This document shows positions 12,601 through 63,500 of a stretch of 64,000 nt of DNA, piece after piece; position 1 is the first letter of the stretch, and each line of letters begins with the position of its first letter. The notes below the pieces were generated by a model that was not told where the DNA came from, ran no database searches, and saw only the letters and a list, made by a program, of their open reading frames with translations. The DNA is from Limnomonas spitsbergensis (taxonomy: Eukaryota > Chlorophyta > Chlorophyceae > Chlamydomonadales). The DNA lies in contig JAYJMM010000102.1 in NCBI GenBank assembly GCA_037349105.1, positions 558,001-622,000 on the forward strand. The letters are read 5' to 3'. The translations under genes and the position numbers were made by a program.

Positions 12601-15600
12601 GTTTGAGGGTTAATGTTTTAAGCTGGAGATTCAAATTTGAATTTGAGCAGTCCTCTTTTCACCTGTCCTCCCAGTGTGCCCCGCCGCTGGACCCCAACCT
12701 GGTCCCTGCTCTCAGCCAGGAGCAGCAGCGGGAGCTCCTCCTGCAGCAGCTGGCCGCAGCTGTACCGAGCGGGATGGACATCTCGTACCTGCAGGCGCTG
12801 CTCACCTCATCGGACCCGGTAAGAGGCAACCCTGGGCCCTAACCCCTAGCTTTGCTGACCTCCACCCGACCCGGAAAGTGCCGATCCATGACACCTTTAC
12901 CCCTTTTTCATGCTGGTCCCGTAGGCCCCATCGCTGCAGGCTATGGCACAGGCACTGCAGATGCAGCAGGAGGGTGTCATGACCTACACTGATGCCGATA
13001 GCTTCCAGCAGCAGCAGCAGCAACTACAACAGGTGCGCCAAAAGAAACAGGTGTAATAGTAGGAGCAAGTGCGTCAGCAGCAGCACCAGGTCTGACAGCA
13101 ATAGGAGCAGCAGTAGTAGGTGTGGCAGGAACAGTAGCAGGTGAGAGAAAAACGGCAGCAGTAGTAGGTGTGACAGCAACAGCAATAGGAGCAGCAGTAG
13201 GTCAAAAAGAAGCAGCAATAGCTGCAGCAGGTGAGTCAGAAGCAGCACTTGAGTCAGAAGCAGCAGTTGAGTCAGAAGCGGCAGTTGAGTCAGAAGCAGC
13301 ATGGCATGCTGCCCCAGGCTTCACGGCCGTAGGCGGTGATGTAGCACAAAAGCGAAGCTTAAGCACACAAGAACAAGCAGTGGTCTTGGCCCCAATGCAG
13401 TGGCCTGTTGTTTTGCGAATACCAAGTAGAAGAGGAAAAAACTCGATGGTTGGGCGGGGCTGGAAATCAAGGCCCGGTGCTGTGGTGCCGTCCCTCTTGC
13501 TTACCTTGGCCCCCTGAAACCCGACCTTGTAGGCGGAGATGAATGCGACGGCGATGGCTGCGGTGGCGGCCATGGGCGGGCTGCTACCAGGGGGCCTGCA
13601 GCAGCAGCTGCTAGGCATCAATTTCACGGGCCTGGGCGACCCCTGCGCGCCCGGTGGGGGTATGGTGGGCGGCGGGGATGACACGGACACGGAGGATGGC
13701 GGGGAGGATGCCCATGCTGACCTGGCACCTCATCTTTTGGCATGCCTAGTGGTGAGCAACGAGGTGTCAAAGGGGGTGGGGGAGGATGCTATGTTTAGGA
13801 TGAAGGGTCAAAGGCTGGACCCAAGAGCGGCGGGGATGATACGGTCACGGAGGAAGGCGGGGAGGATGCCCATGCTGACCCGGCACCTCATTTGCTGACG
13901 TGCCTAGTGGTGAGCCTTATGTGGTTTGAGGCGGGTGGAGGAGCATGCCCTGTTCAGGGTTCAGTGCCCTGCTTTCAAAGCGGGTTTTACGGGTCTTTTG
14001 TGTGACACAGACATGGAAGATGGTGGGGAACCCGCCCATTCTGACCCGGTACCTCATCTGCTGGCCTCCCCCGTCAAGAGGACGGGAGGGGATCAGCAGG
14101 GGGGAATTCGGCGGAAATGAGTTCATGTTTCATGTTGATTGTTGAACCCCGAAGCCATGGCTGTGGGGAGCGGATGAGGGTAGCAATTGTGTATTTGTGT
14201 GTCTGCTTGCCCGCTGCCTCAACATTGGGGACCTCCCCTTTTAAATGAGAAGCTTTCAGCCAGGGAACAAGTGAAGGGGAGTGTGTGGTTGTGGTGAATT
14301 GTGTGTTTGCTGCCACTTCAAATGACTCGCTGCTAGGCTACCTGTAGTTACCGATAGTGTCGAAACCCTCAACGTAAACCCCATGCCACTGTCTGCTTAA
14401 CAGCATTTGAATGGCTGCGGCTGCTCATAATCTCCTGATCCATGGACCCTCCCCCCACGCCGCACAGAACCCTGGTCACGCCCTGGTCACATCCAGGTCA
14501 TACCTGTGTCACGCCCTGGTCACTCCCTGGTCACACCCTGGTCACTCCCTGGTTGTTCCCTGGTCACACCCTGGTCACTCCCTAGTCACTTCCTGGTCAC
14601 TCCCCTGATCTGTCTCACCCGTCTCACCTGCTCCCCTCACCCCTCTCTGCAGAGCACTATGGGGGTTGTCGAGGGGACCGCGGCGGCTGAGGCCATCCTG
14701 CCTCGCAACCGCAAGAAAGTCCTTGCGGGGATCTACCAGCAACAGCTGCAGCAGCTGGGCGAGGGCTCTGCCGCAGCCGCAGCAGTCGCTGCCGCGGCCA
14801 ACGCAATCGGGCCCGGGAGCGCCCCGCTGCAGGGCGCGGGAGGCGCCTTCATTCCCCCGCGGCCGCAGGCGCGACGGTTCTACGAGCCGACGCAGAAGGT
14901 GCACTTTGAGGGCGAGGGGATGAAGCTGGCGGATGGGCGCATCTACGTGCCGCTGCCTTTCATTCACAAGAACTTCACCGAGGAGGTCGAGTGGCCGGTG
15001 CTGCTGCAGGTAAGTGAGGCTTTAGAGGATTAAGACGATTTGGGGTTTCGATGAATTGATGGTTTGGACGAATTTAGGGTTTCAACGAGTTAAAGATTTC
15101 GACGAATGTTACTTTGTTCTAGCTAGACATGGTCAGGTCTTCTATTGTACTGCTTCAGGGTGCCTTGCATGCCAGTGGCCAGTGCTGCTGCAGGTGAGGG
15201 AGGCTTCGGAGGGCTGACGATCTTCTAGTTTATAAAAGTCTGGCGATCTACTTCGGTGTTTTAGCGTAGAAGCAAGTGGCTGTTGAAGCTTCAGTGTGAG
15301 AGGCTGACGGTCCAGGGTTCTCTGAGTGATTTAGGGTCTTCTAGGTTAGGGGTTCAACGTTTGGGGTTAGGGCCAGTGGATGGTGCTACTGCATTTGAGA
15401 GAGGCTTTTGTGTGATGGTCTTCAAGGGTTCAAGGGTTGAGGGTTCAGTCTAGAGGCTGGTGTTGCTACAGGTCTGAGGGGGGGAGAGGTGGTCATCATG
15501 CGGGTTGTTGGCGGTCTCCTCGCTTTTGCATCGCTTGGACACTGGGCAGGTCACCCTTTTCCTCCGCTGCTGCAAGCTGGCATCTTCGTCCGCCCTGTTC

Positions 15601-18600
15601 CACACTTTGCCAACACATTCCACACTTTGGCTGCGGCTGCTTAGGCCAACCTAGTGTGCTAATGTCGATTGTATCAAGGATGGGTACCCAGCCAACACTC
15701 TGCACACACTTTCCACTCTTTGTTCATTCCGTGTACACAACGTGCTCACTCTTTTCCCTCTCTTTGTACGTAGGCAAGTGTCCTTGTGAATGCCAAGTGT
15801 ATCAAGGTCGTGTATCCGGTCAACACTCTTGTATCCACCCTTTGTTCCCTCTCTTCCCTCTCCTTGAACGCAGGCGGACATCTTTGTGAACGACGAGTGC
15901 ATCAAGGATGGGTACCCGGTCAAGATCGCACGCAGCCAGAATAAGACGCGGCGCCATGGTCTCGGGAACCACTGGGTGACTGGCCACCAGAAGCTGATCA
16001 AGAACTACAAGGACGTACGCATGCAGGCAAGCTGGCCATGCAGGTTTCCGACATACGGTATTGGTTGCTCTCAGACCATGAGGTATACAAATATAAACCT
16101 CATGTTTAGATACTTATATATTCCTATAACCCATGATTGATTCGGTCACTCAAACCTGCCTTGGCCCTGATTTTTATCCCTGAAGCGTTGACCCTGATTC
16201 TATCCCTGAGGCCTTGACCCTGGGTCATCCTTGCAGGGGCTGGAGATAGATCCGGAGACCGGCAGGCTCAAGGTAATGCTCTCCGCCACGGGATCCTGGG
16301 ACGAGGGCTCTGCCGGCGCCGCCGGCGGCAGCGGGGTGCCCTCGCCCATGATGATGTCCCCGTATGGCGCGCCAGCCATGGCGATGGCCCAGCTGCTGCT
16401 CTCGCAGCAGCAACAGCAGCAGCAGGCGTTTGCGCAGCAGGGAGGCTTTGGCCCGGAGCTCGCGGCAGCGCTGCTTAGTTTCGGAGCGGGCGGCGGCGGC
16501 TGCGGCCTGCCCGCGATCGCTGGGGGTGTCGGTGGCGGCGGTGCGGCTCCCTACTCGGGCTATATCGACAGCCAGACATTGGCTGCATTTGTGGCCGCCA
16601 CCGGGCAGCACTCCGTGCCACCGACGGACCAGCAGGGCGGCGAGGCGGGCGTGGGCGGGGTAGAGGGTGAGGGGGATCTCGTGGGAGTGGGAGGAGGCGC
16701 AGCGGAGGCCGGGCAGCAGGCCAGGGATGCTGCCGGGGGGGAGCCGCATATGGATATGGCTGCAGCCTTTGCCGCAATGACGGCCATGCAGCAGCAGCAG
16801 CAGGTAAGCGGGCTGCTGGAGACGGGACCAGGACCGTTTGCTGGGACACTAGGAAAGGATGAGAGAGGGAGGTGAAATGAGAGAGGGAGGTGTAGTGAGA
16901 GAGGGAGGTGTAATGAGAGAGGGAGGTGTAGTGCGAGAGGGAGGTGCAATGAGAGAGGGAGGTGTAATAAGAGAGGGAGGTGTAGTGAGAGAGGGAGGTG
17001 TAATGAGAGAGGGAGGTGTAGTGAGAAAGGGAGGTGCAATGAGAGAGGGAGGTGTAATAAGAGAGGGAGGTGTAGTGAGAGAGGGAGGTGTAATGAGAGA
17101 GGGAGGTGTAGTGAGAAAGGGAGGTGTAATGAGAGAGGGCGGTGTAATAAGAGAGGGAGGTGTAGTGAGAGAGGGAGGTGTAATGAGAGAGGGAGGTGTA
17201 GTGAGAGAGGGAGGTGAAATGAGAGAGGGAGGTGTAGTGAGAGAGGGAGGTGTAATGAGAGAGGGAGGTGTAGTGAGAGAGGGAGGTGTTATAAGAGAGG
17301 GAGGTGTAATAAGAGAGGGAGGTGTAGTGAGAGAGGGAGGTGCAATGAGAGAGGGAGGTGTAATGAGAGAGGGAGGTGTAATGAGAGAGGGAGGTGCAAT
17401 GAGAGAGGGAGGTGCAATGAGAGAGGGAGGTGTAATGAGAGAGGGAGGTGTAATGAGAGAGGGAGGTGTAGTGAGAGAGGGAGGTGTAGTGAGAGAGGGA
17501 GGTGTAATGAGTGAGGGAGGTGTAGTGAGAGAGGGAGGTGTAATGAGAGAGGGAGGTGTAGTGAGAGAGGGAGGTGTAATGATAGTTTTTGAACATAAGG
17601 AGGGCATTGGGTACCGGTTTTTAATGTGGACTTGCTTCCAGTGTTATGACTTGTTAAAATGAGACAGGTGGAAATCTCTGGGGAACTTGTTGACTGCCCG
17701 CCTTCCACCTCTGTTTCCTCAAATATCAGCGGGGGGATTCAAATTGAATGCGGCGCAGGCATGAACGCAAGCTCGTCTCAACATTGTGTCCGCACATGTG
17801 CATACCTCATGCAAATGTCGCATCACTCGAAAGGGAAAAACTACCGGTGCAGAAAAACAGTGTATACCAATATTGCGGTAGAAAATACAATATTTAAAAA
17901 CAGCATACAGGTACCGTTACTGAAATGACCACTGTTGTACTTTGAATGGGAGCTGCAGTGTCAAAAGCGTGGTTGAAAGCGAGCCCTACATGTGGCAAGC
18001 GTTTTTGTAAGTTGCGCCCCTCAGGTTGACGATGGCAAGCAAGAGAGCAAAAGGTACCTTCCCGTAAGCGTTCTTGTAACTGCGCCCTGCAGGTGGACGA
18101 AGGCGGCGGCGTTGGCGGCCAGCCCTGCATTGCCCTGGGTGACCGTGGGGCTGCAGTCGGCGACGGCAGCGATGGCGGAGCAGGGGGCGGCGAGGCGGCG
18201 GCGGCTTCCGCTGACCAGTCGCAGTCTTCCATGGATGCCGCAGCCGCCGGCCTGCACCAGCTGCTGGCGTCGGGGGCGCTCAACTTCTCAGGCGGCGATA
18301 TGATGCAGGTAGGGGTGTGCTCTTCTTGGCGTTGCTGGCCCGCTCAAGCTGCTTTGGCATCAGGGGGACGTGGAGGTGCTCACCCTTAGCTGGTCAGCGA
18401 TATTATGATGCAGGAAGGGGCTGCTTAATATGTCGATGCCGGCTTTCACCATGTTCTGCGGCGTCAGGAGGACAAAGGGACGCTCACCCATCAGGAGCTG
18501 GTCAGCGATATGATGATGCAGGTAAGGGGGATGCTGAACTTTTTGATGCCTGCCTGCATCAGCTGCTGGCTACAAGAGGACGAGTTGCTCATCCTTTCGG

Positions 18601-21600
18601 GGCTGGTCGGTGAAATGATGCAGGCAGGGGGGACTCAACTTGTCAATGTTGGCCAGCACAAGCTGCCACGCCGAAAGTAGGTGCTGTGGCGAAAGAAGAT
18701 GCTGAACTGTTCGGAGCCAGGCAGCGATGCAATGATGCAGATGGAGGATTGAGTGTAATTATTTAATATAAAATGGCGTGGCGAGAGGCGACCTTCATCA
18801 ACGTGCTTTGATTGTGGACTGTGTTCCTTTATGGAATTTTGTGGTGGCTTGGTGGGTGCAGGGTAGGGCAGGTTTGAGGGCAGAACGTTCACACTCTTTC
18901 AAAGGGCAAAGAGCTTACACTTTTGTAAATGAATGGCAGCAGTGTTGGCGCAATGCGACGTGGGGTGAGTGGGAGGAACACAGAGTGCTGTTTTGTTTTC
19001 CTCCCTTTTCAACTGACCGCTGCCACGCTGGGAATGCAGGCTGTTCAGTTTGTTTGCCTCTCCCCTTATCTCTAACTGCTGCTTTATCGCTGCAGGTGGG
19101 ACCCTCCTCTTTGTCAGGCGGGGGCATGCCCGGTGGAGGCGTGGTGGGCATGCCCGGGGATCAAGGCGGCAGCATGGACATCATGGCGATGATGCAGAGA
19201 GTTGCAGGAGGTGAGGGATGTATCTGCATGGTGATAGCATGGGTTTGCATGGTGTGATGGGCGGGAATATGGACATCATGGCGCAAACATGGACATCATG
19301 GCGATGATACAAAGAATTGCTGCAGATGAGGGATAAATCTTCATGGTGATGGCATGGGTCTGCATGGTGCCATGGTGAGAACATGGTGTGCATGGCGTGA
19401 GCATGGGTGTGCATGGCGATGAAGCAGAGGTTTCATACAGGTGAGGGATGTATCTGTATGGTGATGGCATGGTTGTACATGGATGGCATGGGTGTGCATG
19501 GGTAGGGTGTGCAACTGTGCATGAATGGCATGGGTGTGCATGGGTGGGGTGTGCAACTGTGCATGGGTGGCATGGGTGTGCATGGGTGGGGTGTGCAACT
19601 GTGCATGGGTGGCATGGGTGTGACTGGCGCGAACGAGGACATCATGGCAATGATGCAGGAGGTGGCAGTGGGTGAGAGAAGGGCTAGGACTCAAGGAGAC
19701 ATCTACTGTGTTAATGCATGGGTGAATGGTCGTGGTGGGAATCATCTGCTAGGTGATGTGAAAGACTGGAAGGTGTGGAAAGTGGTGGATTTAGTGTGAA
19801 TGTGTGTGGCGTGGGAGTCATCTGCAAGGTGGTGTGAAGGGTGTGACTGGAGATGGCAATCACAGCACCAGGGTGGATGTGGGCAGTGGCAGTTTTCAGC
19901 CAACGGGGCAGGAGGCCAATGGAGCATGAGCACTACTATTATTTTTTTCCGTGACTCAGCTACATGTCAGCTATACTCCGGCCTCTGGATCTAACACATT
20001 TGTGGACAGCCATGCTGCTTCGGCTGCCAATGGAAGGCTGGCCCAAGATTGGTCCCAATCAGGTCTTTCGCGGCCGTGGGGTGGGGCCTGCCAAATGTGG
20101 ACTTGCAGCAAAAAGAAGAAGCACTCACGCGCACTGTCAACAGCTATGCTCATGGCTGGAGGGGTGGGGGTCAAGAGTCATGCCCTACTGACATCCAATC
20201 CAGCCTCTTGATGCCCCCCCCTGATAAGACCAGTCCAGGGAATCAGCCATTCTTTATTTTTACGTGACTCAGCTACATGTCTGCTATACCCCGGGCTCCA
20301 CGGCCAGAGGCCCCAGGTGTGGACAGACGTGCTGCTTAGACCCGTGTCTGGCACTCGATCCAGGTTCGGTCCTAATCAGGTCTTTTGGCAGGACTAAGGC
20401 AGCCTCCAACGATGGCCTCTTGGACGAAAAATATACCCTGGAATCAGCCTAGACGACCTGATTGGCCTAAGGTAGAGCGCCTTCATCTCTGTCGATGGTC
20501 GATGAACCTGCCTGATGACCAGCCTGTGCACGTGCAGAAGGTAGCAAGCAGTGCTGACTCAGCGGATCACCCCACCATTCCCGATGGATACAAACATTAA
20601 CTATGAGACCTAGAGACCTGGTCCTGGTCCTGGCAACACAGCTGCACTCACAGTAGTTATGAAACGTTCATAGCTTGCATTCCGCTGGTAATTCAAAGTA
20701 TGATTCCCTCGATACTTGCTGAACCCTCTGTGTGTGTGTGTGTGTGCGTGTGAGCGCGCAGGCACCTCACCGGACATGCTGGCGTCGCTGTTGGCGTCCC
20801 TGGGCCAAGGCGGAGGGCAGTTGATGGGCTACCCACCCATGCCGGCAAGGTGGGAGGATCTGATATGTCGGGAAGGGCATCTCACATATTCCGGCAAGGT
20901 GGGTCAGGGTAGTGATACCGAGGCCGGCGCCAGGTGGGCCTTTAACAACCCCCCATCCCACCCCACCCCAGCGAATCCTGTACAAATTGGGGGGGCACCT
21001 GATTACCAGGTGGGCTCTAATCTTGCCCGGAGTGGGGGGAGATGCGATGTGACTGGGATCTGATCAGGGGAGGTTGAGGAGGAGGAGAAGGAGGGGAAGG
21101 GGGGGGGGGGGGGGAGAAGGAGGGGGGGGGGGGAGGAGGAGGGGACGGGGAGGAGGAGGGGGGGGGGGAGGAGGAGGGGGGGGGGGGAGGAGGAGGCGAG
21201 GAGGAGGAGGAGGGGACGGGGAGGGGGAGGGGGAGGAGGAGGGGACAGGGAGGGGGAGGGGGAGGGGCGAGAGGAGGAGGAGGGAAAGGGGGAGGGGGAG
21301 GAGGAGGGGACAGGGAGGGGGAGGAGGAGGAGGGGGAGGAGGAGGAGGGGGAGCAGGAGCAGGAGGGGGAGGGGAGGGGGAGGGAGAGGACGGGACTTAC
21401 TACCCCGTGAGCTCTCTGCAACGGTCCAAACACAGCTCGCTGCACTCTGCACCAGTTTTATGTTTTAGGAAGCTACTCCGCTCCGTACCACCTTTCGATG
21501 CCGACGGTCGGCCACCACTGGGTCGATGGGGACCAAATCTCGCCTGGCTCTCAGCCAGTTCCCAAGCAGCAGGCACTGCCGCTCCAGTCTCCCTTGGCCA

Positions 21601-24481: not shown

Positions 24482-24631
24482 GGGCGGGCGTTGTTTGGGT
24501 TGATGATTGTAGAAGAAGGGGAAAAGCCTGGCAGACACGGAGAGATCAGCTGCTGTGTATCTGGCTTCTGGGAAATCAGGAGCGACGTTTTTTGTTTTGC
24601 AAAGTGAGCAGCAAGCACGTCCTTATTGGCT

Positions 24632-24636
24632 GTAAA
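24632..24636 (+). promoter_or_regulatory. TGTAA poly(A) signal of the B3-like gene
   Basis: TGTAA lies 151 bases after the stop codon of the 18-exon gene. TGTAA is the usual polyadenylation signal in volvocine algae (established knowledge), and its position supports the 3' end of the gene model. Confidence 0.5.
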
Positions 24637-26890: not shown

Positions 26891-26922
26891 CGGTATCCAC
26901 AACAAGGATGGACACTCGCCTG

Positions 26923-27360
<438 letters not shown>

Positions 27361-27525: not shown

Positions 27526-27956
27526 TGTTCAGGGGGCATGGCAGACGGAGGCAGGAGGATGAAGATGTTCAGGGGACATGGCAGACGGAGGGAGGAGGAT
27601 GAAGATGTTCAGGGGACATGGCAGACGGAGGGAGGAGGATGAAGATGTTCAGGGGGCATGGCAGACGGAGGCTGGAGGATGAAGATGTTCAGGGGGCATG
27701 GCAGACGGAGGGAGGAGGATGAAAATGTTCAGGGGGCATGGCAGACGGAGGCTGGAGGATGAAGATGTTCAGGGGGCATGGCAGACGGAGGGAGGAGGAT
27801 GAAGATGTTCAGGGGGCATGGCAGACGGAGGGAGGAGGATAAAGATGTTCAGGGGGCATGGCAGACGGAGGCTAGAGGATGAAGATGTTCAGGGGACATG
27901 GCAGACGGAGGGAGGAGGATAAAGATGTTCAGGGGGCATGGCAGACGGAGGCTGGA
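27526..27956. repeat. 40-bp minisatellite, left block
   Basis: About 11 copies of GCAGACGGAGG(GAG/CTG/CAG)GAGGAT then GAAGATGTTCAGGGGGCATG. The array resumes at 29906 after a 1.95-kb insertion. Confidence 0.95.
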
Positions 27957-47946: not shown

Positions 47947-48434
47947 GCCCTTCCTCCGACATCTCGCCCTCCCAGGCTCCCACTACCCCCTGCTGGTATA
48001 TTACTTCCATGATCATCCAAAGCAGGTCTTAGATCAAACGTCTCCTGGACAGATAATCATAGTCACCCATGATCACAACCGTCATACAAGCGGCTCAAAT
48101 GGTAATGAACGGTAATGAACGCCCGATTCCGCACTCACCGACTATTATGTCTGACACAGTGAGCACAATACTTGTAAGCACCAAGAACACAGCCTGTCTC
48201 CATCACCATGCTCAGCCAAACGTACTTGCTGCCTTGTGCTGCGCTCCTGCTACAACATTTTTTAAACAGCTGCATTTCTCGAACCATTAGAAGCGCACTG
48301 TTCTTCTGATTAGACCCTGCCCCACCCAAGGACTCGGACATTTTACTGAGGAAATACATTTGTACCAGGTTAAGGAGACAGAGGGGAGGTGGGGTCAGCC
48401 AGGGTCCTTCCCTTCCCTCCCCTACCCTTTGATC
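47082..48434. repeat. Inner copy of a tandem duplication covering oxidase promoter and exons 1-2
   Basis: Segment A (47082-47946, exons 1 and 2) and segment B (47947-48434, 5' flank) match 48443-49458 and about 50648-51134. Compared with the outer copy, this one lacks about 150 bp near 47240 (outer 48598-48749) and lacks the 1.18-kb piece between A and B. Exon 1 differs by a few codons (CLRVLFLACLVLIKAASSK against CLQLLFLACLVLIKAASGE); exon 2 is identical in protein. This copy directly precedes the rest of the gene. Confidence 0.9.
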
Positions 48435-48442
48435 CCCTACCC

Positions 48443-49458
48443 TTATAATCTGGAATTGATCTCCATGGTGATCTGCATAGGCTAGGCGACGCAGTCAGTG
48501 TCTGTCTGGTGAGAAGCGCGCAAACAGGCAGATATTACAGCATCAATGCAACCGGTACCACCACGCACTAGAAAAGGGCCAGGCAGAGCGAGCCGCGAAG
48601 AAAGCAAGGAAGAGAAGTAAAAAGGTAAGCCAAGACCGACAAGCAAAGATAGATAAAGCAAGAGGCAGGTAGCGGCATGCCCGCCCTTTCGTGGTGGAGG
48701 TGGTCCAGGGCATGAACTACCTCGCTAATTTGCGGTTGCACGATTTGCTAGATTTGCGTATCAGTATATGTCCCGAAGTCAGATGGTGCGATGATGCGGT
48801 CAGCAGTGGCAACAGCCTTATCAGCTGGATATGTCTGTGTCTGTCAAACTATGAAAGAAAAATACGCTCCCCTAGGGGCTTGTAGGTTAAGGGAGCAGCG
48901 CAACTCGGGGCCAAGCATGTCTGTTTGTCAGGTGAGTGTATGTATGCGCTCACCACAGAAGTTGGACCACCAGACCAGCTCGGCCTGACTGTAGTAGGTG
49001 CGAGCGACCGTGATAGTCGCAGCGGTAGGGGGGTAGGTGGGGGCAGCATTGCCCCCTGTGACCAGCTTGGCTCGGCGCTCAGGGCCCAGGCTCTTATTGG
49101 CAGTGGCAGAGAGGTCTGCTCGTACAGCAGGTCGGGGAAGGGCAGGGAAAGGCAGTAAGGGGTACAGCCACAAGACTGAGCATGAAGGGATGCTCTAAGT
49201 AGGGTTGAATATTCAGCAAAAAAAAGAATTGAAAAGGATTGATGAGAAATGTTCTAGGTGCATGCTAACTTGTTGACTGTCTCGCACACTTTTGGAAACT
49301 CACACAATTGTGAGGAAGAACTGAAGAAGCATGCACAAAACTGACAGCATTAGGAAAGCATTTCACTTACCTTCGCCGGAGGCGGCTTTGATCAGGACGA
49401 GGCATGCTAAAAAGAGCAGCTGTAGACAGCGGTCGCCTTGGCATGACGGAGGCATCAT
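48443..49458 (-). pseudogene. Duplicate first two exons of the oxidase gene (outer copy)
   Basis: Exon 1 copy is 49458-49371 (ATG ATG start, signal peptide, phase-1 GTAAGT donor). Exon 2 copy is 49115-48954, with the same splice sites. Both are intact, so a transcript starting here could splice into exon 3 at 46900, skipping the inner copies, or read into them. No other oxidase exon is duplicated. Whether it is an alternative first exon or a dead duplicate cannot be told from sequence. Confidence 0.8.
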
Positions 49459-50644
49459 GGCCTGGATTGGTCCTGTGATTGGCGGAACCCACACAGGCCG
49501 ATCCGAAGGTAACCAAATCGGAACACAAGCGGCCAGTATAGGGTCCAATGTCACAGGCACGATGTACATGAATGGCCGAGAGCAGAAAGACGTGTTGGTC
49601 ATTCTTGACCACCTATATTCTGCCTCCTACTAATGGAGTCTATGATTTCAGGATCAGCCCTCGTGGTGATTAGACTCCCACCCTCACAAGTCAACTAGGA
49701 CAATCCAGTTCTGGCTTTAATTCCAAGAATTGCAAGATTTTATTTTAGGCGGTGTCAACCTTGTTGCCAAAACAATCTTCTTCAATGAGTTATGAGTTCT
49801 TCCTAGCAGGATAGAACTCAGGTTTGTTCCGCGATTATTCCGAGGGATTGCACCAGTAGGGTGAGTGCCCGCCCAAGCAAGCAGTGAAAAGGTGCACCCT
49901 GCCTGTGATGATCCTGGGGCGGCGCCGAACATCAAACTTGTTCTCATGCTCTCAGGGTGGAGCAGGCATAATAAATATCACACGACAGCTCAGGGAAGTG
50001 ATGACTGATAGCAGCGACAAAATACTTTGTTACTGGGAAACAGTGGGACGGACGCACGGGTACACGTCAGCAGATGCCGGCAGTTCCGCGGACTGACCCC
50101 CCTCCACATCCGCGGTGAGCGAGTGCTGGCTTCCACAGTTGGGCCCAAGAGGCCACGCCAAGAGGCTGCAGAAAGTGGTGACTCTTCGACTCGAATATGT
50201 GTGCGAATATCTACCGTATTCGACATACTTAAGGATATGATGATCCCGCTCATCACCTTCGGGGACGGACTGGCGGGAGACAAAGTCAAGATCTTGCGAT
50301 CCGAGAGAAAGGAGGTCGCCAAGCGTATGTCAGAGAGGTCCGGTGGCCACCAGGATGACAGCACGAAAAACGAATCGACGGATGCCAGGAAAGATGCTGC
50401 TTCGAAGTATATACTTGTTTTTGCATCGAAAATATCGTAACCTCCATCGGACAGCAGATTGGACAGTTCGAGACTTGGATCCCTACGTCAAATCCGCCAG
50501 AAGCAGAACATCCTCCAGCTGGACTTCTTACTAGACCTCTGGTCTTGGGTGTGCCGACTCTTGCTCGCGTACAAGATAGGATAGGCCAGTCTTCTCGGTA
50601 CTTAGCCGCCTGTCGTGCGCTTTCTTGGCTCTCCAGGGCATGCC
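49459..50644. other. 1.18-kb segment present only in the outer duplicate, directly upstream of the start codon copy
   Basis: The inner copy joins A to B directly (CATCATG then CCCTTCCTCCGAC), while here 1.18 kb intervenes, beginning GCCTGGATTGG and ending CTCTCCAGGG before CATG. The ends form a short imperfect inverted repeat (CATGGCCTGG/CCAGGGCATG) and CATG may be a target duplication, although four extra bases follow the right end. A 137-codon plus-strand frame (50027-50440) has no recognised motif. Confidence 0.55.
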
Positions 50645-51134
50645 CCGCCCTTCCTCCGACATCTGGCCCTCCCAGGCTCCCACTACCCCCTGCTGGTATA
50701 TTACTTCCATGATCATCCAAAGCAGGTCCTAGATCAAACGTCTCCTGGACAGGCAATCATAGTCACCCATGATCAGAACCGTCATACAAGCAGCTCAAAT
50801 GGTAATGAACTGTAATGAACGCCCGATTCCGCACTCACCGACTATTATGTCTGACACAGTGAGCACAATACTTGTAAGCACCAAGAACACAGCCTGTCTC
50901 CATCACCATGCTCAGCCAAACGTACTTACTGCCTTGTGCTGCGCTCCTGCTACAACATTTTTTAAACAGCTACATTTTTCGAACCATTAGAAGCGCACTG
51001 TTCTTCTGATTAGACCCTGCCCCACCCAAGGACTCGGACATTTTACTGAGGAAATACATTTGTACCAGGTTAAGGAGACAGAGGGGAGGTGGGGTCAGCC
51101 AGGGTCCTTCCCTTCCCTCCCCTACCCTTTGATC

Positions 51135-51929
51135 ATCTGTTTTTCAAATGAGTGTTACAAATCACAGCCATACCCTCTGGCCACACCGAAACAAAAAAAT
51201 AATCAAAAGCCCAGATGGGGCATGCCTCCCTCCTCCACACTCTCCAACTGAAACCAGGCTTGGGACTTGCAGGCCTAGACTCCCTGACAAGCCGGACCTG
51301 TCACAACCTACAACTACCAAACCAATCGCCGTTGCCGTCTACATTGAGAGCAGTCTACCAAGGTGGGGGGCAGTCAGCCAACAATCACTGAATGCTCAAT
51401 ATGTCCAATTGCCTACTCTGCGGCAAACTGTCACACATGGTGACACTCACCGTAAAGCCACCAAGTAAATTATGGTACCGGTAGGCCCATAAAGAAGAAG
51501 AACACGTGCACTTTTTGAAAGCAAACTCGCTGCTCCTCCTTACCGACCCCGAATCAACCGGCTGGGATGACTATATTAGCCTGCCTCTGGGATCACAAAT
51601 CCAAGTCTGCAGAGCTATCCAGCCGCAAGTCTCATCAACATGAGGGGGGCCTTAGCCAACGCGTGCATCCCCCCCTCCTCGAAACACACAACATCCTCAA
51701 GTCGCCAATCTGGGGGAGAAAACAACAACCCGTTCCCTCCCCTTCTCTTGGAACATCCAAAGGCGATTCCCTCAAACCAGCCTCGCTGCTCTAACCAGCC
51801 CTGAGCAGTCGTTTATCTAAACCGGCGTCATGCTGGGTGGGCAGCGCCAAAACTCCTCGACCAGCAAGGAGCGGCCGGACTCCATTTCAAAACACCAAGC
51901 AGACCGCTTGCTTCACACTGCCTCCATGC
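51135..51929. other. Spacer between the oxidase duplication and the pherophorin gene
   Basis: No gene recognised. It should contain the pherophorin 3'UTR; a minus-strand TGTAA lies at 51155-51159, though nearly 780 bases past the stop. Frames here lack codon bias. Confidence 0.45.
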
Positions 51930-54900
51930 CTACACCCTTGAGCAGTCATTGACTTCCACTGGAGTGGCGCTGTGCGGGCAGCATTGGAAGTCCTCCTCCA
52001 TCTGCGAGTAGGCGCCGCGGAGGGTGTACTCACACACCAGGCTCGCCCCCACGCTGGTGCTGCAGAGATCGGTCGGCTGCAGATCCCCGTTAACAAACAA
52101 GGTCACCTGGACAAGTAAGCGGGCGGGCGGGCAGATTAGGGCAGGTGAATACCTAGCACGTGAAAACGTACCTGAGTTCATCTGTACCTGGCCCTGCCTC
52201 CCATACCAGAGCTGACCTGCCCAGGTGAATACCTAGCACGTGAAAACGTACCTGAGTTCATCTGTACCTGGCCCTGCCTCCCATACCAGAGCTGACCTGC
52301 CCAGGTGAATACCTAGCACGTGAAAACGTACCTGAGTTCATCTGTACCTGGCCCTGCCTCCCATACCAGAGCTGACCTGCCCAGGTGAATACCTAGCACG
52401 TGAAAACGTTACCATGTTCCCTGACTCCGAACCCCTTCGCAACAGGATGCCAAATTATGTATCCCCATCATATAGGAACCCTATGTCGAGGCCCTGCCTC
52501 CCCCCTTACCAGCGCTGAAGCTGTCATGTTGGTCCAATGTAAGTTGATGAGTGTGATCCAGGTGCGGTACGGATCCGCATCCTTGTAGAAGTCCACATTC
52601 TGACTATTGAATTGGACCTAAGAGGAATGACAGGGCAGGTTCAGTGTCGGGTATGACAGCTCACAGCTTTAGTGTGAGGATTGACTGGGCAGCTTCAGTG
52701 CGCGAGCGGCTCTCACAGGATGGTAGCACAATCCACGCAAGATATCTGGTTTGTCCACACTCATCAAACAATTGCGTGCCTCCTAAAACCATTGCACCCT
52801 TGCAACAGATATCAGGTCCGTTCCCAACAGATGCTCCAGAAGCTGCGGTAGGGTAAATCAGTATATGCAAACAAAGTGGGACTGCTGCGGGTATGTTTAA
52901 CGGCTACCGTATATACTATGCGGGACAGCTCACATTGATGATGTTGTCTACCACAGTGGGTTCCACATAGATCTGGATCTGGTCCACGTCTGAGGCTGTA
53001 CAGTCAATGGGGTTGGGCGACAGTGTCATGGCTGTCCCCTTGTAGTTGACGGTGAAGGCAAACGCCGTGAGGGCGGAAGAGGACGTCATGGTCTGGTACT
53101 GGAGCCTGCACAACATGGCAGAACAAATGTTAGAGGCAGGGGGGCAAAATGCCGTGTGGACGGGAGAGAAGGTCATGGTCTGGTACTGGAGCCTGCGCAA
53201 CACAACATAACATATGTAAGAGGCAGGGGGGGCGATAAACGCCGTGAGGACGGGAGAGAAGGACATGGTCTGGTACTGGAGCCTGCGCAACACAACATAA
53301 CATATGTATGAGGCAGGGGGGGCGATAAACGCCGTGAGGACGGGAGAGAAGGTCGTGGTCTGGTACTGGAGCCTGCGCAACACAACAGAACATTTGTAAG
53401 AGGCAGGGGGGGCGATAAACGCCGTGAGGACGGGAGAGAAGGTCATGGTCTGGTACTGGAGCCTGCGCAACACAACAGAAGAGAATGTTGGAGCCAGGTG
53501 GGGCGATAAAACAGAATGTTAGAGGCATGGGGGCGAAAGAACGAATGTTAGAAGCAGGGGGGCAGTAAAACATAATGTTACAGGCAGGGGGGCAACAGAA
53601 CAATATGTGGCAAGTGGGGGGCGATAGAACAGAATGTAAGAGGCAGGGGGGCGATATAACTGAATGTTAGAGGCAGGGGTGCGGCATACAGGGCTTGTAC
53701 AGATTGCACACATGCTTTCCGTTCTTGACCTCAGATGGTTGTGATGCTAATCCCTCCTGGAGTGGCAAGTCAGGGAGGCAGACCATCACTCCACAGTCCC
53801 CTCCACCTGTACCCGGCTGAGCATGCACTGCCTGGCTCACCACTCACTTTGATTTTTTTTGTCACAAACTTAGCGCAACCACCCACAGCCCTTTCCAAAA
53901 GGGCCAGGCAGAGCGAAACGTGGGGAAACCAGCGACATTGGGTTGCCCCGTCGGCGCTCAAAACCATACCTGTCCCTCCTCTCAGTCTTGACCCCCACAG
54001 TCCCACACTCACGCTAAGGGTTTCACAGTTGTGGTCAGCTTTCATAAACAAATGTGTGACTAGGTATGCTTTAAAAAACAGCGAAGTTGGAAAATACTAC
54101 GTGCCTGTCTGTCCCCCATTTCAAGTGCCAGTTCCTCCCCATTTGCCTGCCCCCCCTCCTCCCCCTCTCCACTCACGCATAGGGGTTCTCGGCGTAGTTG
54201 TCCACGCAGCAGTTGTCCGGCTGGCTGTTGTAGAAAGGAATGATGCCGTTGGGGCAGCAAGGGGCCTCGTTAAAGGCAGTCAGGGGCAGTGTGGGATCAC
54301 CGGGAGCCGTCTGCTGGCCTTTCATGGTGTAGTCGCAGTTGCCTGTGGCCGTTGAGGTGAGGGGCAGAGGGGGTGAGGGGATGAGGGCAGGCAGAACATG
54401 CCGAGGCGGAAAGGTACTCATGAGTGCCATGATCCGGATTGGTTGTTTGCCTAGAGGATAAGGGAGAGGGCGTCCTCAGAATTATAGAGAAGTGGCAGGG
54501 GATTGCGAGCACTTGAAGAGGCCAAGGAGCGTCACAGTTGCAGGTAAAGCAATCTGAAGTGTCATGGGGAGCGTTCCACGACCTGGAGTGTGTGTTAAAT
54601 GGTTCCAAGCCCAGAAGGGGGGAAAGGACACAAGCCGCATCAGCAAGCTATCTGACCGACAAGTTTTCCAAGCTCTCAAGACCCGAAGCGTTTCAAAGCC
54701 GGACCCAAGATGCCGGAGGCCTCCCCACCTGGCTCCCAAGGCGTGAACTCGCTGGCCTGGCAGGGCCAAGTGATTGTGTTATTCCACGCCGAAGCGTCAA
54801 ACGTGACGGACAGAAACCACGGGACACCGACTGTGAGGTTGGAGGTGAAGAGCTGCGGAGGGTTGGGGGAGGAAGGGGGGACAGGGGGAGCAGTTTTTAT

Positions 54901-57900
54901 CAGCTGGCTGCGGAAGGGGGAACACCTTTTTTATCAGCTGGCTGCGGAAGGGGGAACAGGGGGGTAGCGTTCTTATCAGCTGGCTGCGGAAGGGGGAACA
55001 GGGGGGGCAGCGTTCTTATCAGCTGGCTGCGGAAGGGGTAGGGAACAGAGAGCAGCGTTTTCATCTGCTGGCTGCGGGGGGACAGGGGGAGCTGTGGTGG
55101 CACAACTCCAAGGAGTGTTAGAATTGAATTCTCGGGGCTCTGGGGGTGGGTTGGTCAGGGAGAGACAACCCTGGAGAGACCGGCAAAGGAGCAATTTCCC
55201 CCCCTTGAGCCTCCTTGTCTTCTTCCACCTCATTCCCTCCACCCCATGCCATCATGGGGCTGATGGGGGTGTGGTGGCCAGGGAGAGACAACCCTGGAAA
55301 TATCGGCAAAGGCAGTACCGTAGATTTGATTTGCCTTCCCTCGGGCATACCGGGAATAAATTCTTTTAATGCTGCCCTCAGGCAAATTTTCGACAAAAAC
55401 TCTTAATTTCCGACTGAAACCTGGCGTCGACAATCAAGCATTAGTAAATCCATGGATTGCATAACCCTAAACAAAGTTAGTAATGAGGGAAGGCATGAGG
55501 TTAGAACTGGGGCCCAAAACCTGCCCTCCACTACGTGTCCCTCCAGGCAAACAAAATCTACGGTAGCGGTCTTTCCAATGCTCCTTCCCTTGTCCTGGCT
55601 CATTTTCACTTGCAAGCTCCGCCTCTGTCGTTACCTGGGGGGGTGCATTACGCTCGGTGGCCAGGGGGAAGAACTGCACGCCCCACTCATCCGTGGTTTT
55701 GACAGTCTGGATGACTTCACCAGTGTCCGTGGCGATATAGGCGCTGGCGATATAGGGAGACAGGCCTGCAGGCCCACACAGGCAATTTGCAGGAGCGGTC
55801 AGATGACTAAGAACTAGTGCCCGTCCCACATGCAAACACCCTGAGCCTGAGCCAGCCCTCTCGGCTTAATTTCCGACGGGAGCGGACAAGGTGCGGCCCA
55901 CAGCTACATAAGGCTGTGTCTGGGCTCTCTTAAGCTGTCCCTCCCAACATCCAAACAACACAGCCATATGGTATATATACGGTACCCTGATTGATTACGG
56001 TGTCATGCTCGTATTTATATGTTATACGGTATCTTATATATAACCTTATATGGATCATTTTTGTTGGATCCGACTCTTTAGTGACTGGCTGCGCCCACCC
56101 CCCAGTGTTTGAAATGCGTGTGTATGCCCCCGGCCCCCAGGTGAGCTCCCTGCTCACCCGGTATGGTGCTGATCCCAATGCTGTCCAGGGTCTGATCGCA
56201 GCAGTTGCCGAGCCGGTAGCCCGCAGGCCAGCAGGCGGAGGAGTCCACCACGTTGATTTCAAAGAGGAACATGTTGGTGAGGCCCGAGTTCACTGCCTCG
56301 CGGAAGGTCAGGCGCCACCTAAGCAGCGGGACGGGGAGCGGGGGGGCTGATGATACCAAGAGCCCGGGCGGGTGGTGCTGATAATACCGAAAGCGTGAGC
56401 AGGGGGTGCTGATTATGCCTAGAGCGTGAGCGGGTGGTGCTGATTACTGAGACCGGGAGCAGGTTAGGCGGGGGCGAATGCAGAATGGGCGGTGAAGAAA
56501 GCCGGTCAAAGGCTGAACAGCCGCTGGATGTATTCAACATAATTAAGGAGCCTGGTTTGAACAGATGCAGGCCTGTGATGAATGCAGGTGTGCGACATGC
56601 TGGCAGCCAAGGTCATGAAAGTATGAAACCATGGGTTGCACCTCCGTACGAAGGTACACAGACTTTTCAGCCCCAGGTACCCCTGCCTCACAGATGAAGG
56701 GATCAACAAAGGAATATCAAAGAAGGGCATTATTGAGCCCATGGATCTACCTCCGCGCCCAGCCCAGAGAAGCTTCACAGCCCCAAGCTCCCTTACATCA
56801 ATTAGGAGATCGATAATGGACTCCCGGTCTACCAGCATACATTCAGACTGTCAATTGGGACAATCAGCACACCTTGATGCCTGGACGATGAGGGCGCCAA
56901 TGCAGGGGCACTGCGGCTGCTTGGGCTTCAGGTTGGGGAAGGGAGGAGGAGGAGGAGGGGGAGGGGGGGGGGAGGAGGAGGAGGCGGAGGGGGGGAAGGA
57001 GGAGGGGGAGGAGGGGGAGGAGGAGGGGGAGGAGGGGGGGGAGGGGGAGGGGGAGGAGGGGGAGGAGGAGTTGGAGGCCCAGGAGAAGGAGGGGGAGGGG
57101 GAGGGGGAGGGGGAGGGGGAGGAGGAGGAGGGGGAGGGGGAGGAGGGCTTGGGGGAATGGGTGGCGGGGGGGGGGGGAGGAGGGGGGGGAGGAGGGGGAG
57201 GAGGGGACGGTGGAGGGGGGGGAGGGGGAGGGGGAGGGGGGGGGGGGGAGGGGGGGGGGGGAGGAGGGCTTGGGGGAATTGGTGGGGGAGGAGGAGGCGG
57301 AGGTGGAGGAGGAGGTGGAGGGGGTGGAGGAGATGGGCTGGTGGGCAGAGGAGGGCTGGGTGACGGTGGAGGGGCAGGGGGGGAGGGCGACAGAGGTAGG
57401 GGGGGAGGGGGAGGGTTTGTCTGAGCACAAATGGGGCAGCAGACGTGGTAGCTGCTCTCCATCATGGAATACCTGCAAGGGTGCAACACGGTCGGATATT
57501 CTTCGCTTCTTACAATATGGGGGAGAAGCACGTTAGCCCCTCAGGCACACATTTCGGCTCAAAAGGGGGCAAACGCTCTCAGGCAGTGGGATGGAGAACA
57601 ACAGAGCACCTCTTTGAACAAATCATGCTTCAGATGGCGGCTAAGACTTGCTCAGACCCCTCCCTGCCTAATATCTAAGATTCTGATCGAGGGACAGCCC
57701 CAATTCTTCTCTTTCCTGCAGACACATTCCCATGAGCCCCATTTTCCCCATCCTCGCCTCACGGACAACAAACAGCCCCCAGCACCCCCCCCTGGTGACC
57801 CCCCACCCCATCCAGCTCTCACAGGCAGGTCCCGTCCGGGTTATCACACAAATTGGCGTAGGTATTGCAAGTCGAGCCTGTCTTCATGCGGAAGCACAGA

Positions 57901-59533
57901 GTCGAGCCCGGCGCCGAGGCGGCGTCCAGATTCACGGGCGTCACGCGGATCTTGCCGGTGGCAAAGTTTGTGTCGAAGAAGGCAGTCCGCTTCTGACCGT
58001 TGAGATAGGCGCCCTCAAACTGGGGGTAACAGGCCTTGTCTGCAGTGTGGGCGCGGATGGCAGGGAGGATCAACGGGCTGTGGGAGCTGGGAATCAAGGA
58101 GCCCAGGGTGTATTCTATGGTTTTTCGGACAGAGGTTCAGCACAGCTGTTTTCAGGTATCAAAAATCCATGAGAATGATAACCGGGGTTCGATAGACGGT
58201 GGTTTGGCACAGCTGTTTACAGGAAGACAGCTGTTTTCAAACAGGCTTAGCAAAAAAGCATGCCAAGCAGGTAGGCATGGCGGCCTCACTGTCTGGAAAT
58301 CCAGTGGCATGCTTATTACAAATCTCAGCCCCATACGATGGGGCAGAGTGTTGTCAGCTAGGGGAAAAAGTGATGCTGCCTTTGAAGGCCCTGATGTCAG
58401 ATCAGCAAAGCCCTGATGCTAGGTAAGTAAAGCACTGATGTGGATGAAAGCTTAAACGCACCAATGCTGACCTCCACCTTGCCGAGATTCATCGTGATCT
58501 CCTGGCAGCACCTTTGTGACATGTCGCAACCAACCTGCAGGTGGCAAGCAAGCATGAGATGTTAGATTGAGAGCTTGCATGCCTTGGGTGATCCGCCCTC
58601 CACCTCACAAACTGCTGGTAAGCCTGACAAACTGCGACAGGTGATCGGCGTTCAACCTTTTATCGAGCTTGCAAGAGGCATGGCCAGCGGGACAGCAAGC
58701 TTGCCTCCTTGTTGGGGCTTAGCCAACCCTCAGCTAAGGAAAACGCGGGTTAAGGCAGTAAGAGCTCACACAGGAAGCCGGGACTGGCTTCATGGGCTAT
58801 TGACGTTCAGGGCATGAAGTTTTAGGATACCACAGCAGAGATTTTGACAGCTGGGTGGGCTATTCGTAGTAGCTTTCAGCATGCGTAAAATTCATGGACA
58901 CTGGCCCCGGGGATGCATGGCATGCAGGCTTGCTTTATGAGAATCAGCCAACACTTGCAACTGCTGGAGGTGCTCCTTCTATCACAGCAGATGGAGGGAA
59001 GAGGCTCGAGGGTCAGCACATTTTTGAGGATCCAGAATCAGCTGGCGCTATCTTTGCAGCACCGCTGGGGTAAAGCAAGTTGCTTATGATCATGCCAGAG
59101 TCGCATGGCAGTAAGAATTACAGGTTTGTGAATCAGGGACGTACATAGTCGAGCTTGAAGCAAATGTCGGTGCTGCCACCAACAGTGTTGATTCCTCCGA
59201 AGTCTAGACGGTAGGGATTTGACGAGCATTTGTAGTCCGTGCAGGAGCAGAACGGGAAAGAGATGAGGGCAGCAGTAGGCACCAACGAGGTGTCAACGAC
59301 TGCGGGCTCAATTCCTTGATCAAGTTGTGCATGGCCTGAGCAAGGAGCAAGGTCAATATTGATAGGTCAACCTAGTGACAGGTGGTCAGCAAGGCCATGC
59401 AACATGACACAATTTCAAAAGTATTATGATTATGCTGTTGCGCCTTACCTGAAGGCAATAGCACGGCGATGACTAGGAAAGCGCTAGTGAGCCACAACGA
59501 CCCCGTTCTGGGGCTTCGTTCTCGGCACCCCAT
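51930..59533 (-). CDS. Pherophorin-family extracellular matrix glycoprotein, three Cys-rich modules (734 aa)
   Basis: Wall protein of volvocine algae. Exons in transcript order: 59533-59449, 59335-59145, 58534-58462, 58039-57823, 57472-56873, 56318-56158, 55765-55635, 54852-54729, 54342-54177, 53105-52934, 52617-52510, 52106-51930. All phases agree; 735 codons with the stop. Exon 1 is a signal peptide (SLWLTSAFLVIAVLLPSG). Module 1 (about residues 45-205) has FPFCSCTDYKCSSNPYRLDF, ICFKLDYVGCDMSQRCCQEI and CCPIC, the standard pherophorin Cys pattern. Then comes a linker of almost pure Pro and Ser (about 57.43-56.94 kb), a substrate for hydroxyproline O-glycosylation. Module 2 has CPCIGALIV, FLFEINVVDSSACW, LGNCCDQTLDSI, APCCPNGI and DNCCV. 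Module 3 has FTVNYKGT, DLCSTS, LVCEYTLRG and FQCCP, ending DCSRV. Usual pherophorins have two modules around the linker, so module 3 is an extension. Confidence 0.88.
52143..52410. repeat. 80-bp repeat (3.3 copies) carrying a copy of the pherophorin exon 11 donor
   Basis: Starts AGGTGAATACCTAGCACGTG at 52143, 52223, 52303 and 52383, almost identical copies. Each contains, on the minus strand, TCAGCTCTGGTATGGGAGGC and AGGGCC, matching the real exon 11 end and donor (TCAGCGCTG-GTAAGGG, GGAGGCAGGGCC at 52490-52520). Confidence 0.88.
53115..53690. repeat. 90-bp repeat carrying copies of the pherophorin exon 10 5' boundary
   Basis: Four copies at 90-bp spacing (53171, 53261, 53351, 53441) plus the true exon at 53082. 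On the minus strand each has TTGCGCAG then GCTCCAGTACCAGACCATGA and CCTCACGGCGTTT, as in the exon. A looser array of AGGCAGGGGGGCGATA-type units follows to 53690. Confidence 0.92.
54880..55085. repeat. TTATCAGCTGGCTGCGGAAG repeat upstream of pherophorin exon 8
   Basis: About five copies of a 40-50-bp unit with GGGGGAACAGGGGG and TTATCAGCTGGCTGCGGAAG. On the minus strand the unit reads CCTTCCGCAGCCAGCTGATAA, close to the real acceptor (CCTCCGCAG, 54853-54861), so it may be a further boundary-derived repeat. Confidence 0.75.
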
Positions 59534-60500: not shown

Positions 60501-60548
60501 AACCCGCACGTAATAACCGACTCCTCGCCTGTTTCTCTACCGCCCTTG

Positions 60549-63500
60549 GCTTGGTGCCCAGTCGTCTTTACCAGCTGTTCCAGATTCAGCGTACATCTCG
60601 TCGCAGCTGAATCGGGTAAGGCACCACAGCTTCTAAATGGTTTGTCATTGGTCAGCATGGTCAGTGGCAGCTGTCCAGAGCAGCTTGGGCACTACGCAGG
60701 CGCTTTGGGTTGGCATCGGCCGCAGTCTGGACACCCGGGCCTCCCACTGCCCTAGAGCTCACGCTATCAGGATTTCAGTTGGTACCACAGACTCATCCAA
60801 CTGTAACATTTAATACCGGCTTCCCCCTTTCAACCAAGCTCTATAGTATCTGGCTTCCAGGCTGGCTCAAGATCTACGGTACGTGCATGGGTTCATTGCA
60901 CACAGAAGTCCAAATGCATGCAGGCATGCAGCGTGTGTACTCCATGTGAGAGCTGCCATGCAGCAGCTGAATGCGGCGAGCTGCCTAGAGCTCTACACCC
61001 TTAGCTGTGTCCTGCTGTTGTTTGTTACAGCATCTACACATCCTCCCAGTCAGCCACTAGCCTTTTTCCCTTATTTTTCCAGAAGGGCCAGCGGGCATTG
61101 GAAGGGGAGGTGGAGGTGGAAGCATTGGTTGGCTATGAAATGAGGGGAAATCTAAAACGCCAGTGACGCCAGGAGAAATTCTGTTTTTACGCCCTCGGTG
61201 TAATGGTTCACAATGCCCCTACCTATTCGTTACTTGTTCAGTATCTCTGGCACGGCCTGTACTAAAATACACGAAGAGCCGTGCAGCGGAAGGGCCTCAG
61301 GCCAACATTAATGGCAGAACCGGCTGTTGGCAGGTCTATGCCATGCTAGGGTTTCAGCCTCAACCTGCAGATCCGGCTGTTGGCAGGTCTATGCCATGCT
61401 AGGGTTTCAGCCTCAACCTGCAGAACCTGCTTGTCTATTTGTTGTACATTGGGATGCCCATTCAAGTGAAAAAGTGTGAACATGCATGCCTGTTGAGAGA
61501 GAACCTTACCCGCTGTCCTTCAGTTAAGTGTGAAGCTGTCCTGGAGCATCTAGGTCGCATTGCCACATGCAAATCCTCCACTCAAAACCCTTTGCCCCAA
61601 ATCTTACACCCCAAACGCTCCCTTCCTCCTTGTGCTTGTTTACAGGCCCACCCCCTCAGGCCTCTGTAACGCCGAAACCTCCAGCATCTGCCTCACCTAG
61701 CCCTCCGAAACCCCTCCCTGGGCCGCCTCAACCACAGCCGCCTACTCCTGTCCCCCCACTCTTCCACACTCCTCCCTCCACACTTCCCTCACCTCCTCTC
61801 CCCCCTCGGCCATCCCCCTCACCTCCTCCCCCCCTTAAGCCATTCCCTGCACCTCCACCTCCTCCGTCACCTCGTCCTCCAGAACCACGACCCCCCGCGC
61901 CGCACCCACCCTCTCCACCACCCTCCCCACCCCCGCCCCCATCTCCTCCCCAGCCCTTCGTGCCTCCCCAGCCCCCTTCCCCATTCCCGCCAATCATCTT
62001 TGTCCGTCTCCCGCCTCCGATACCGAATTCGCCCGACACTCCTCCCCCTCCCCCTCCCCCTCCCCCACCACTGCCAGGATACCCGCGATACCCGCCACCC
62101 CCGCCGCCACCCCCGCCACCGCCCGCGGCCCCCCCTGATCCTCCCCCACCCTCCCACCCTCCAGGCTACAAAGCCCCGCCCTCTCCCCCCCCTCTGCTCC
62201 CACCCAACCCATGGCCTAAATGGCCGAATCGTCCCCCTAGGGCTCCTCCCTTCCCGCCTCAAAGACCTCCCTGGCCACCGCGCCCCCCTCCCGTCCCCAC
62301 ACCGCCACCCAATGCTCCCAGCCCCCGTCCACCACCCCGACCACCCCGGCCATCGCCCCCCTGGCCCCCTGGAGCCATCCCGGCCTCCCCCCCACGTCCT
62401 CCCCCGCAGCCCCCGGCACCCCCAATGCCCCCGCCCGCCCCCCGGCCACCTCCGCCGCCCTATGCGGCCCTCAGCGTCCACTTCAAATGGAACAGCCCGT
62501 TTTTCCAGCTGTCATGCAGCACGCTTGACATATACTACGGTGGCAAAGCTGTGGATCTGATGAACGGGATCCTCATATCGGCCAACCTGCACGTGAGACC
62601 CAAACGTTACCTTAAACCCTAGATCTGATTGAAAAAACTTAAAACCATAACCTCTGAAACATGATCTCTCAACTCCTCTAATCCATGATCTCTTAATCAT
62701 GACCTCCAAACCATCATTTTGGAAATGTTAGTTCTAAACCATCACCTTAAAATCATGACTTCCAAACCCTTAACCCTAAACATGACCCCTGAGCGCCTCT
62801 CATGCTTGCTGCACCCATATGCGGCTATGCATACCCCCCTTGGGACCGTAGCTCCATGTGGCCCTCCTGCAGCTATGCATTTCACACCTTGCACACTTTC
62901 CACACCTCCTACCCCAGGGACATGGCTCCATGTGGTCCTCCTGCAGCTATGCATTTCACACCTTGCACACTTTCCACACCTCCTACCCCAGGGACATGGC
63001 TCCATGTGGCCCAGGGGGATGTGGCCCTCCTGCAGCTATATATTTCACACCTTCCACACAGTTCAAACCTTTTAACCCAGAACCATGGCTCCATATGGCC
63101 CTACTGCAGCTATGCCTTCACATTTTTCACACCTTCCACACCTCCTACCGCCCAGGGACGTTGCACCACATGGCCCTACTGCACCGATGATGACTCGTCA
63201 CAGAAGGGCCTGTCGATCACAATGATGTTCGATGGCGTTTCTGTGGTAACGGCCATGCTGCGCTACATGGTCAAACAGCGGGGAGCGGAGACCCTGATCA
63301 GGGGCTTGCATGTGAGGCGGGTCAAGGGTAGACAAGGCCCCTGTCACCCAGGGGGTGGGACCCATCCCCCGGCTTATAATACAGGATATGTTTCCAAATG
63401 GTGTTATTAAGGGATTTCAGAAGCCTGTGTCGCTGGTTAGACCCTGCCTGAGGGTCTGTATCATGGTATGTGATAGAGAGGGAGCAAAGGAAGTCATCCA

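Follow-up and report, generated by a model that had tools for sequence, protein, structure and literature searches.

Why the tandem repeats in the introns of a green alga should contain the edge of the neighbouring exon is the question raised by a 64,000-nucleotide stretch of the Limnomonas spitsbergensis genome (contig JAYJMM010000102.1, positions 558,001 to 622,000, forward strand; "the window" from here on, with positions counted from its first letter). Three genes of the window are concerned: gene 1, called "B3-like" in the initial annotation, a pherophorin gene and a proline-rich gene. The initial annotation, made from the letters of the window, held that such repeats are made from exon-intron boundaries. 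The analysis presented here points instead to a process that takes no account of boundaries: the introns of this alga probably lengthen by local tandem duplication that is blind to exon-intron borders, and splicing hides the copies that cross a border.

The dataset comprised 10 gene models with 76 introns (every one of at least 90 bp) and 152 junctions. Seven of these genes lie beyond the window, in two 50-kb nuclear stretches (C4:200001-250000 and C119:1000001-1050000), and were predicted with a small hidden Markov model (HMM) trained on two window genes. A copy was counted when its score exceeded all 200 swapped-intron scores and when it held at least 10 exon bases. Sixty-nine copies were counted at 29 of the 152 junctions, in 25 of the 76 introns and 8 of the 10 gene models (14 of 47 introns beyond the window). 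These were tandem repeat units holding exon and intron sequence beside a real junction (the copy in gene 1 intron 3 holding exon sequence only), with nearest-copy periods of 55 to 259 bp (median 97). Both families described in the initial annotation were found: exon end plus donor, and acceptor plus exon start.

The copies were of local origin. Forty-base probes taken from the exon side of the edge matched their own intron in 20 of 146 cases (score at least 14; three window introns shorter than 150 bp were left out of these controls and of the profile below), against 0 of 146 on the reverse complement of the same intron, 0 of 136 when introns of that gene not adjoining the exon were probed, and 1 of 61 for exon sequence 100 to 140 bp away from the junction. 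At 15 listed junctions of the window, z values against swapped introns were 4.6 to 21, and junction probes scored well above dinucleotide shuffles and other introns.

Matches to junctions did exceed matches to exon interiors: 60-bp junction probes were matched in 19 of 94 cases outside the window and 16 of 58 inside, versus 3 of 72 and 6 of 51 for exon interiors. Intron-internal probes of the same length were matched in 23 of 88 cases outside and 20 of 50 inside. A finer series of 40-bp probes, running from 120 bp into the exon (1/75) through 2/103, 3/124 and 9/142 to the last 40 exon bases (22/146), across the junction (straddling probe, 28/146) to the first 40 intron bases (23/146) and then 28/146, 32/146 and 38/146, showed a smooth climb without any peak at the splice site, and a plateau of 0.27-0.31 from 80 bp into the intron. 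The copy rate was thus continuous through the junction.

These results can be ordered as follows. Segments would be tandemly duplicated nearby, and repeatedly, and the position of exon-intron junctions would have no bearing on where a duplication starts or ends; candidate mechanisms are slippage, template switching and unequal exchange. Whenever a segment overlapped a junction, the exon edge would be copied into the intron, splice site included. The site adjoining the exon body would presumably stay in use, so that the protein would be unchanged and the extra copies spliced out; junction-crossing copies would be hidden because splicing removes them, and could then drift or be amplified further into arrays. 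Duplications wholly within exons would alter the protein and would mostly be lost, which would make the junction copies seem special. The proposal of a recurrent route of intron growth held up, as junction-crossing tandem duplication recurs and necessarily lengthens any intron that keeps it; introns with copies were nominally longer (median of 722 vs. 534 bp).

Several observations weigh against a process of this kind acting indifferently, the first group being its unevenness. Eight of the 16 junctions with copies outside the window sit in one LRR gene, and two of the seven outside genes had no copies. A multicopper-oxidase-like gene of the window (reverse strand; the label is the analyst's own reading) had copies at 0 of 16 junctions (8 introns between ten hand-picked exons); no relative of this gene was found at E ≤ 1e-40 with the rough gene model as query. 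In introns of at least 380 bp, 200 of 516 probes had a copy within 300 bp, but only 2 of 98 probes from four small hand-chosen intergenic stretches of the window had one, so the process is not uniform across the genome; the data would fit either duplication promoted in introns or duplicates surviving there. In a scan of all DNA, local copies were strongly clustered (153 of 507 in the window, 93 of 395 in the C4 stretch and 71 of 395 in the C119 stretch). The reliance of the outside gene models on a small HMM is a further weakness. Its output was selected by hand (7 genes and 54 exons kept; weak or wrong-strand predictions and the C4m small exon 7957-7921 dropped); five predicted exons of the C4 LRR gene (41633-41752, 41779-41815, 44811-44876, 47746-47763 and 49264-49290) were also excluded by hand. 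Five of the seven outside genes had a Pfam family above the cut-off (in the case of the WD40 protein, 924 of 1085 amino acids were submitted).

A bolder, tentative proposal is one that we hold to be possible though somewhat improbable: local tandem duplication largely confined to introns, private to each intron, blind to borders and far rarer in intergenic DNA, might be what chiefly drives intron length in this green-algal clade, perhaps in connection with transcription or with selection relaxed within introns. If true, it would explain why the introns of Chlamydomonadales are long and vary widely in length, with no need for transposons or introners, and copied acceptors might occasionally be captured as alternative splice sites.

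The second group of contrary points concerns splice-site and codon signals, and is shared with the rival that survives best, although it is unlikely: that the copies are functional spare sites, kept as alternative donors, acceptors or exons. In copied acceptors the AG was kept in 22 of 25 cases (core conservation of 0.95 vs. 0.77 and 0.71 in the flanks), above what decay alone would leave. This retention ranked third of 46 adjacent pairs, a weak position, and may be taken as a hint only. Donor positions +3 to +5 were kept at 0.86, and junction-weighted mismatches were slightly commoner at codon position 3 (0.19, 0.16 and 0.24 for positions 1 to 3; raw values 0.15, 0.16 and 0.19). Within intron 12, a simple HMM with gene 1 as its training set predicted one exon more, at 18468-18521; by eye this stretch resembles the exon-12 end, and it lies outside the counted copies. 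In addition, two of the small predicted exons dropped from the C4 LRR gene (47746-47763 and 49264-49290) look like exon-edge copies. Against spare sites, the copied donor GT decayed like its surroundings (0.75 vs. 0.78 and 0.74 in the flanks), codon positions were nearly flat, and the exon part was interrupted by a gap in 26 of the 69 copies. The periods showed no bias to multiples of three (8, 12 and 8 of 28 nearest periods leaving remainders of 0, 1 and 2; 18, 28 and 22 of 68 successive periods), and there is no reading-frame signal. The Chlamydomonas eustigma homologue of gene 1 also lacks the copies: this protein aligns straight from exons 3, 8, 9, 13, 14 and 16 into the next exon. The suggestion in the initial annotation that the copies supply spare splice sites finds no backing in the copied donor GT, and has for acceptors the AG hint.

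Duplication targeted to junctions, in which AG|GT or the splicing machinery would make the junction the source of the repeat, is less probable still. The excess over exon interiors speaks for it, as do the GT kept in 29 of 43 copies, the AG retention, and the greater abundance of tandem repeats towards intron ends in Chlamydomonas and Volvox (PMC3887541). The peak-free profile argues against it, and so do pseudo-junctions placed within introns (introns of at least 340 bp, 63 of 76), which were duplicated at an equal or higher rate than real junctions: outside the window, 10 of 39 real donors vs. 0.28 and 6 of 39 real acceptors vs. 0.27; in the window, 8 of 24 donors vs. 0.51 and 5 of 24 acceptors vs. 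0.31. Profile and pseudo-junction rates are both as expected if duplication ignores borders and is slightly depleted at junctions, and the claim that the repeats are specially made from boundaries was not upheld: arbitrary points of the intron are copied at least as often.

The Rogers model of recent intron gain, in which exon segments are tandemly duplicated and the intron itself would be the duplicated piece of exon, is very improbable here, established though it is in other organisms (PMC4974935, PMC3443670). None of the 76 introns had a 5' end resembling the start of the downstream exon and none a 3' end resembling the end of the upstream exon, and what is copied is an already existing junction. 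The absence of this structure looks like intron growth rather than gain. Duplication of AG|GT-containing segments, named in the initial annotation as one proposed route of intron gain, is expected to leave a structure that these introns lack.

Chance, low complexity, dispersed repeats or assembly error can scarcely account for the copies: CAG-rich sequence occurs at some junctions (as in gene 1 intron 7), minisatellites are abundant in the window and two counted copies of gene 1 lie in tracts with matches elsewhere, but the reverse-strand and non-adjacent-intron controls were empty at score 14, the pherophorin and proline-rich arrays matched nothing but themselves, and the counted copies of gene 1 and of the pherophorin and proline-rich genes differ by 14-33% from the exon edge. 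The genome searched comprised 260,226,709 bases in 124 contigs (the published assembly of this snow alga is given as 260,248,090 bp in 124 contigs, with a GC content of 54.15%, and 43,157 isoforms are reported from PacBio full-length transcripts; PMC11228838). In these 260 Mb, neither 52930-53480 (pherophorin) nor 62593-63230 (proline-rich) had any match except itself. Two stretches of gene 1 (13033-16237 and 18250-19700) had matches elsewhere, confined to tracts of simple repeat or minisatellite and a single short piece (for the first stretch, 40 of 117 candidates were scored): a CAG-like tract at 13052-13312, a CTGGTCAC minisatellite at about 14468-14627, the short piece at 13294-13393 and a CATGGGTGTG tract at 19348-19628. 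The two counted copies inside such tracts were 13208-13265 (intron 7) and 19391-19480 (intron 13); the remaining copies of these stretches had, among the matches listed, only short overlaps at tract ends, in a search that skips simple repeats. No single sequence was found across the introns of many unrelated genes, as introners would require (arrays matching only themselves in the 260 Mb, and 0 of 136 in non-adjacent introns). An independent dispersed family is thus contradicted by two arrays, with the two gene 1 copies in shared tracts remaining on its side.

Gene 1 (6681-24481, forward strand) has 18 exons in one open frame of 1083 amino acids, and was modelled independently of the initial annotation; its best homologue is the C. 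eustigma protein. No Pfam family was found above the cut-off, and the "B3-like" label has no support from Pfam. Exon 10 ends in a GC donor (CAG|GCAAGC, 16021-16032), backed by the C. eustigma protein. All seven introns named in the initial annotation (7, 8, 9, 11, 12, 13 and 16) passed the copy rule, and introns 3 and 6 passed as well, giving 9 of 17 introns with exon-edge copies. In intron 14, a 60-bp probe was matched, but the longer probe yielded no copy with 10 exon bases.

Most copies in gene 1 were of the exon-end type. The exon-3 end (exon ending at 9129) was copied in intron 3 (9170-9203; 34 exon bases, 79% identity). Weak copies of exon end plus donor were found in intron 6 (12859-12904; 14 exon and 29 intron bases, 70%, score of 13.5 vs. 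a threshold of 13.0) and intron 7 (13208-13265; CAG-rich, 67%, score of 20.0 vs. 17.0). Exon end plus donor was copied twice in intron 8 (13850-13948 and 14016-14103; 60 exon bases each, 81% and 70%, periods of 158 and 324), three times in intron 9 (15174-15231, 15369-15416 and 15448-15479; 75-78%), twice in intron 12 (18357-18443 and 18552-18662; 67-68%, 55-59 exon bases), three times in intron 13 (19275-19365, 19391-19480 and 19626-19679; 76-84%, periods of 115, 230 and 461) and once in intron 16 (22921-23001; 71%, 43 exon bases). Copies of the acceptor plus the start of the next exon were found in intron 9 (15599-15705 and 15743-15823; 67% and 75%, 58 and 50 bases of exon 10), intron 11 (17997-18036; 82%, 12 bases of exon 12, AG kept) and intron 16 (23419-23465; 75%, 38 bases of exon 17, AG kept).

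The pherophorin gene (51930-59533, reverse strand) was modelled by hand with 12 exons, and its first 208 amino acids match the Pfam family Pherophorin (PF12499, E 5.9e-25). Intron 9 holds four 90-bp copies of the acceptor plus 46 bases of exon 10, which starts at 53105 (53147-53504; 85-86% identity, AG kept in 4 of 4), in an array extending over about 53060-53510. In intron 11, an 80-bp array (52142-52409; 3.3 copies with 100% matches in Tandem Repeats Finder, TRF) shares with the exon-11 end and its donor 9 bases of exon and about 20 of intron, and falls below the rule of 10 exon bases. The initial annotation had counted two or three such introns in this gene: one passed, a second has the 9 exon bases, and a third was not confirmed. 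A 30-bp array of the same gene (53477-53683) reuses part of the 90-bp unit, as judged by eye from the TRF consensus units. This single case is consistent with the idea that such repeats seed longer minisatellites, which was seen once. The proline-rich gene (61647-63311, forward strand) was modelled by hand with two exons, 61647-62592 (with a putative start) and 63156-63311, and its one intron carries, as described in the initial annotation, exon-edge copies: four of the acceptor plus the start of the next exon (62832-63114; 72-82%, 21-34 exon bases). The copies were said to range from fresh to barely readable, and identities did run from about 67% to 100%, with the reservation that the near-identical array, the 80-bp one, holds about 9 exon bases.

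Other repeats were observed in the window and the genome. The 5' end of the multicopper-oxidase-like gene appears twice by eye, with small differences (47436-48400 and 48936-51150), and looks like a recent segmental duplication; a 22-bp minisatellite of about 186 copies (34158-38245) lies within the span of this gene. Arrays of one 40-bp unit were found at 27526-27951 and 29906-30636 with about 2 kb of other sequence between them, as if an insertion had split the array, and about 96 copies of CTTT form a perfect tract at 26978-27360. Outside the window, 50 kb sampled on a contig of 1,058,996 bp (C3, loci L002-L006) had a GC content of 36-38% vs. about 55% in the window. The one locus of this contig that was examined, L004, was AT-rich satellite throughout (periods of 91, 251 and 342) with no open reading frame of 150 amino acids; the contig as a whole may be one giant array of satellite and might represent a centromere.

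Junction-spanning copies record the growth of an intron in an oriented way. Because the original sequence of the exon part is known, this part serves as an anchor from which the order of duplications and their decay can be followed in each intron. Gene finders may also be led to false exons by exon edges that were copied with their splice sites intact.

Introners form dispersed families, whereas each copy described here stays within a single intron. What these copies share with introners and introner-like elements (Micromonas, PMC3879977; fungi, PMC4457414) is that both are recurrent sequences linked to introns. Direct repeats near splice sites (PMC11782384) likewise lie at intron-exon borders, but those are of 4-30 bp, compared around both borders of the intron and read as insertion footprints, whereas the copies here are tandem and lie on one side of the intron. 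In Chlamydomonas and Volvox the density of tandem repeats is highest in introns (PMC3887541), and core-Reinhardtinia introns are atypically long, owing to a mechanism described as likely ancient and left unnamed (PMC8226300); unlike the present work, neither paper, in the parts available, mentions repeat units containing the edge of the neighbouring exon. Among the matches listed in the open-access literature (titles and starts of abstracts, with subscription papers mostly uncovered), none describes green-algal introns that owe their length to recurrent copying of exon edges. The kind of event is already known, and the mechanism is less exotic than the one proposed in the initial annotation. 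Tandem genomic duplication is a known route of intron gain (PMC4974935, PMC3443670, PMC2891723). In the potato RdRp case (PMC4974935), a gene segment with splice signals was tandemly duplicated, as here, and that segment crosses one intron-exon boundary; in L. spitsbergensis the duplication lies inside an existing intron, is repeated and decayed, and the structure of a new intron was found in 0 of 76. Human segmental-duplication genes (PMC2812944) also have tandem units across exon-intron boundaries that can be spliced out, with 27 intron modifications reported, two thirds of them with RNA support for a transcript retaining the repeat. Those are recently duplicated genes, whereas the copies of this alga are found in ordinary genes, at 29 of 152 junctions, are mostly decayed and carry no frame signal.

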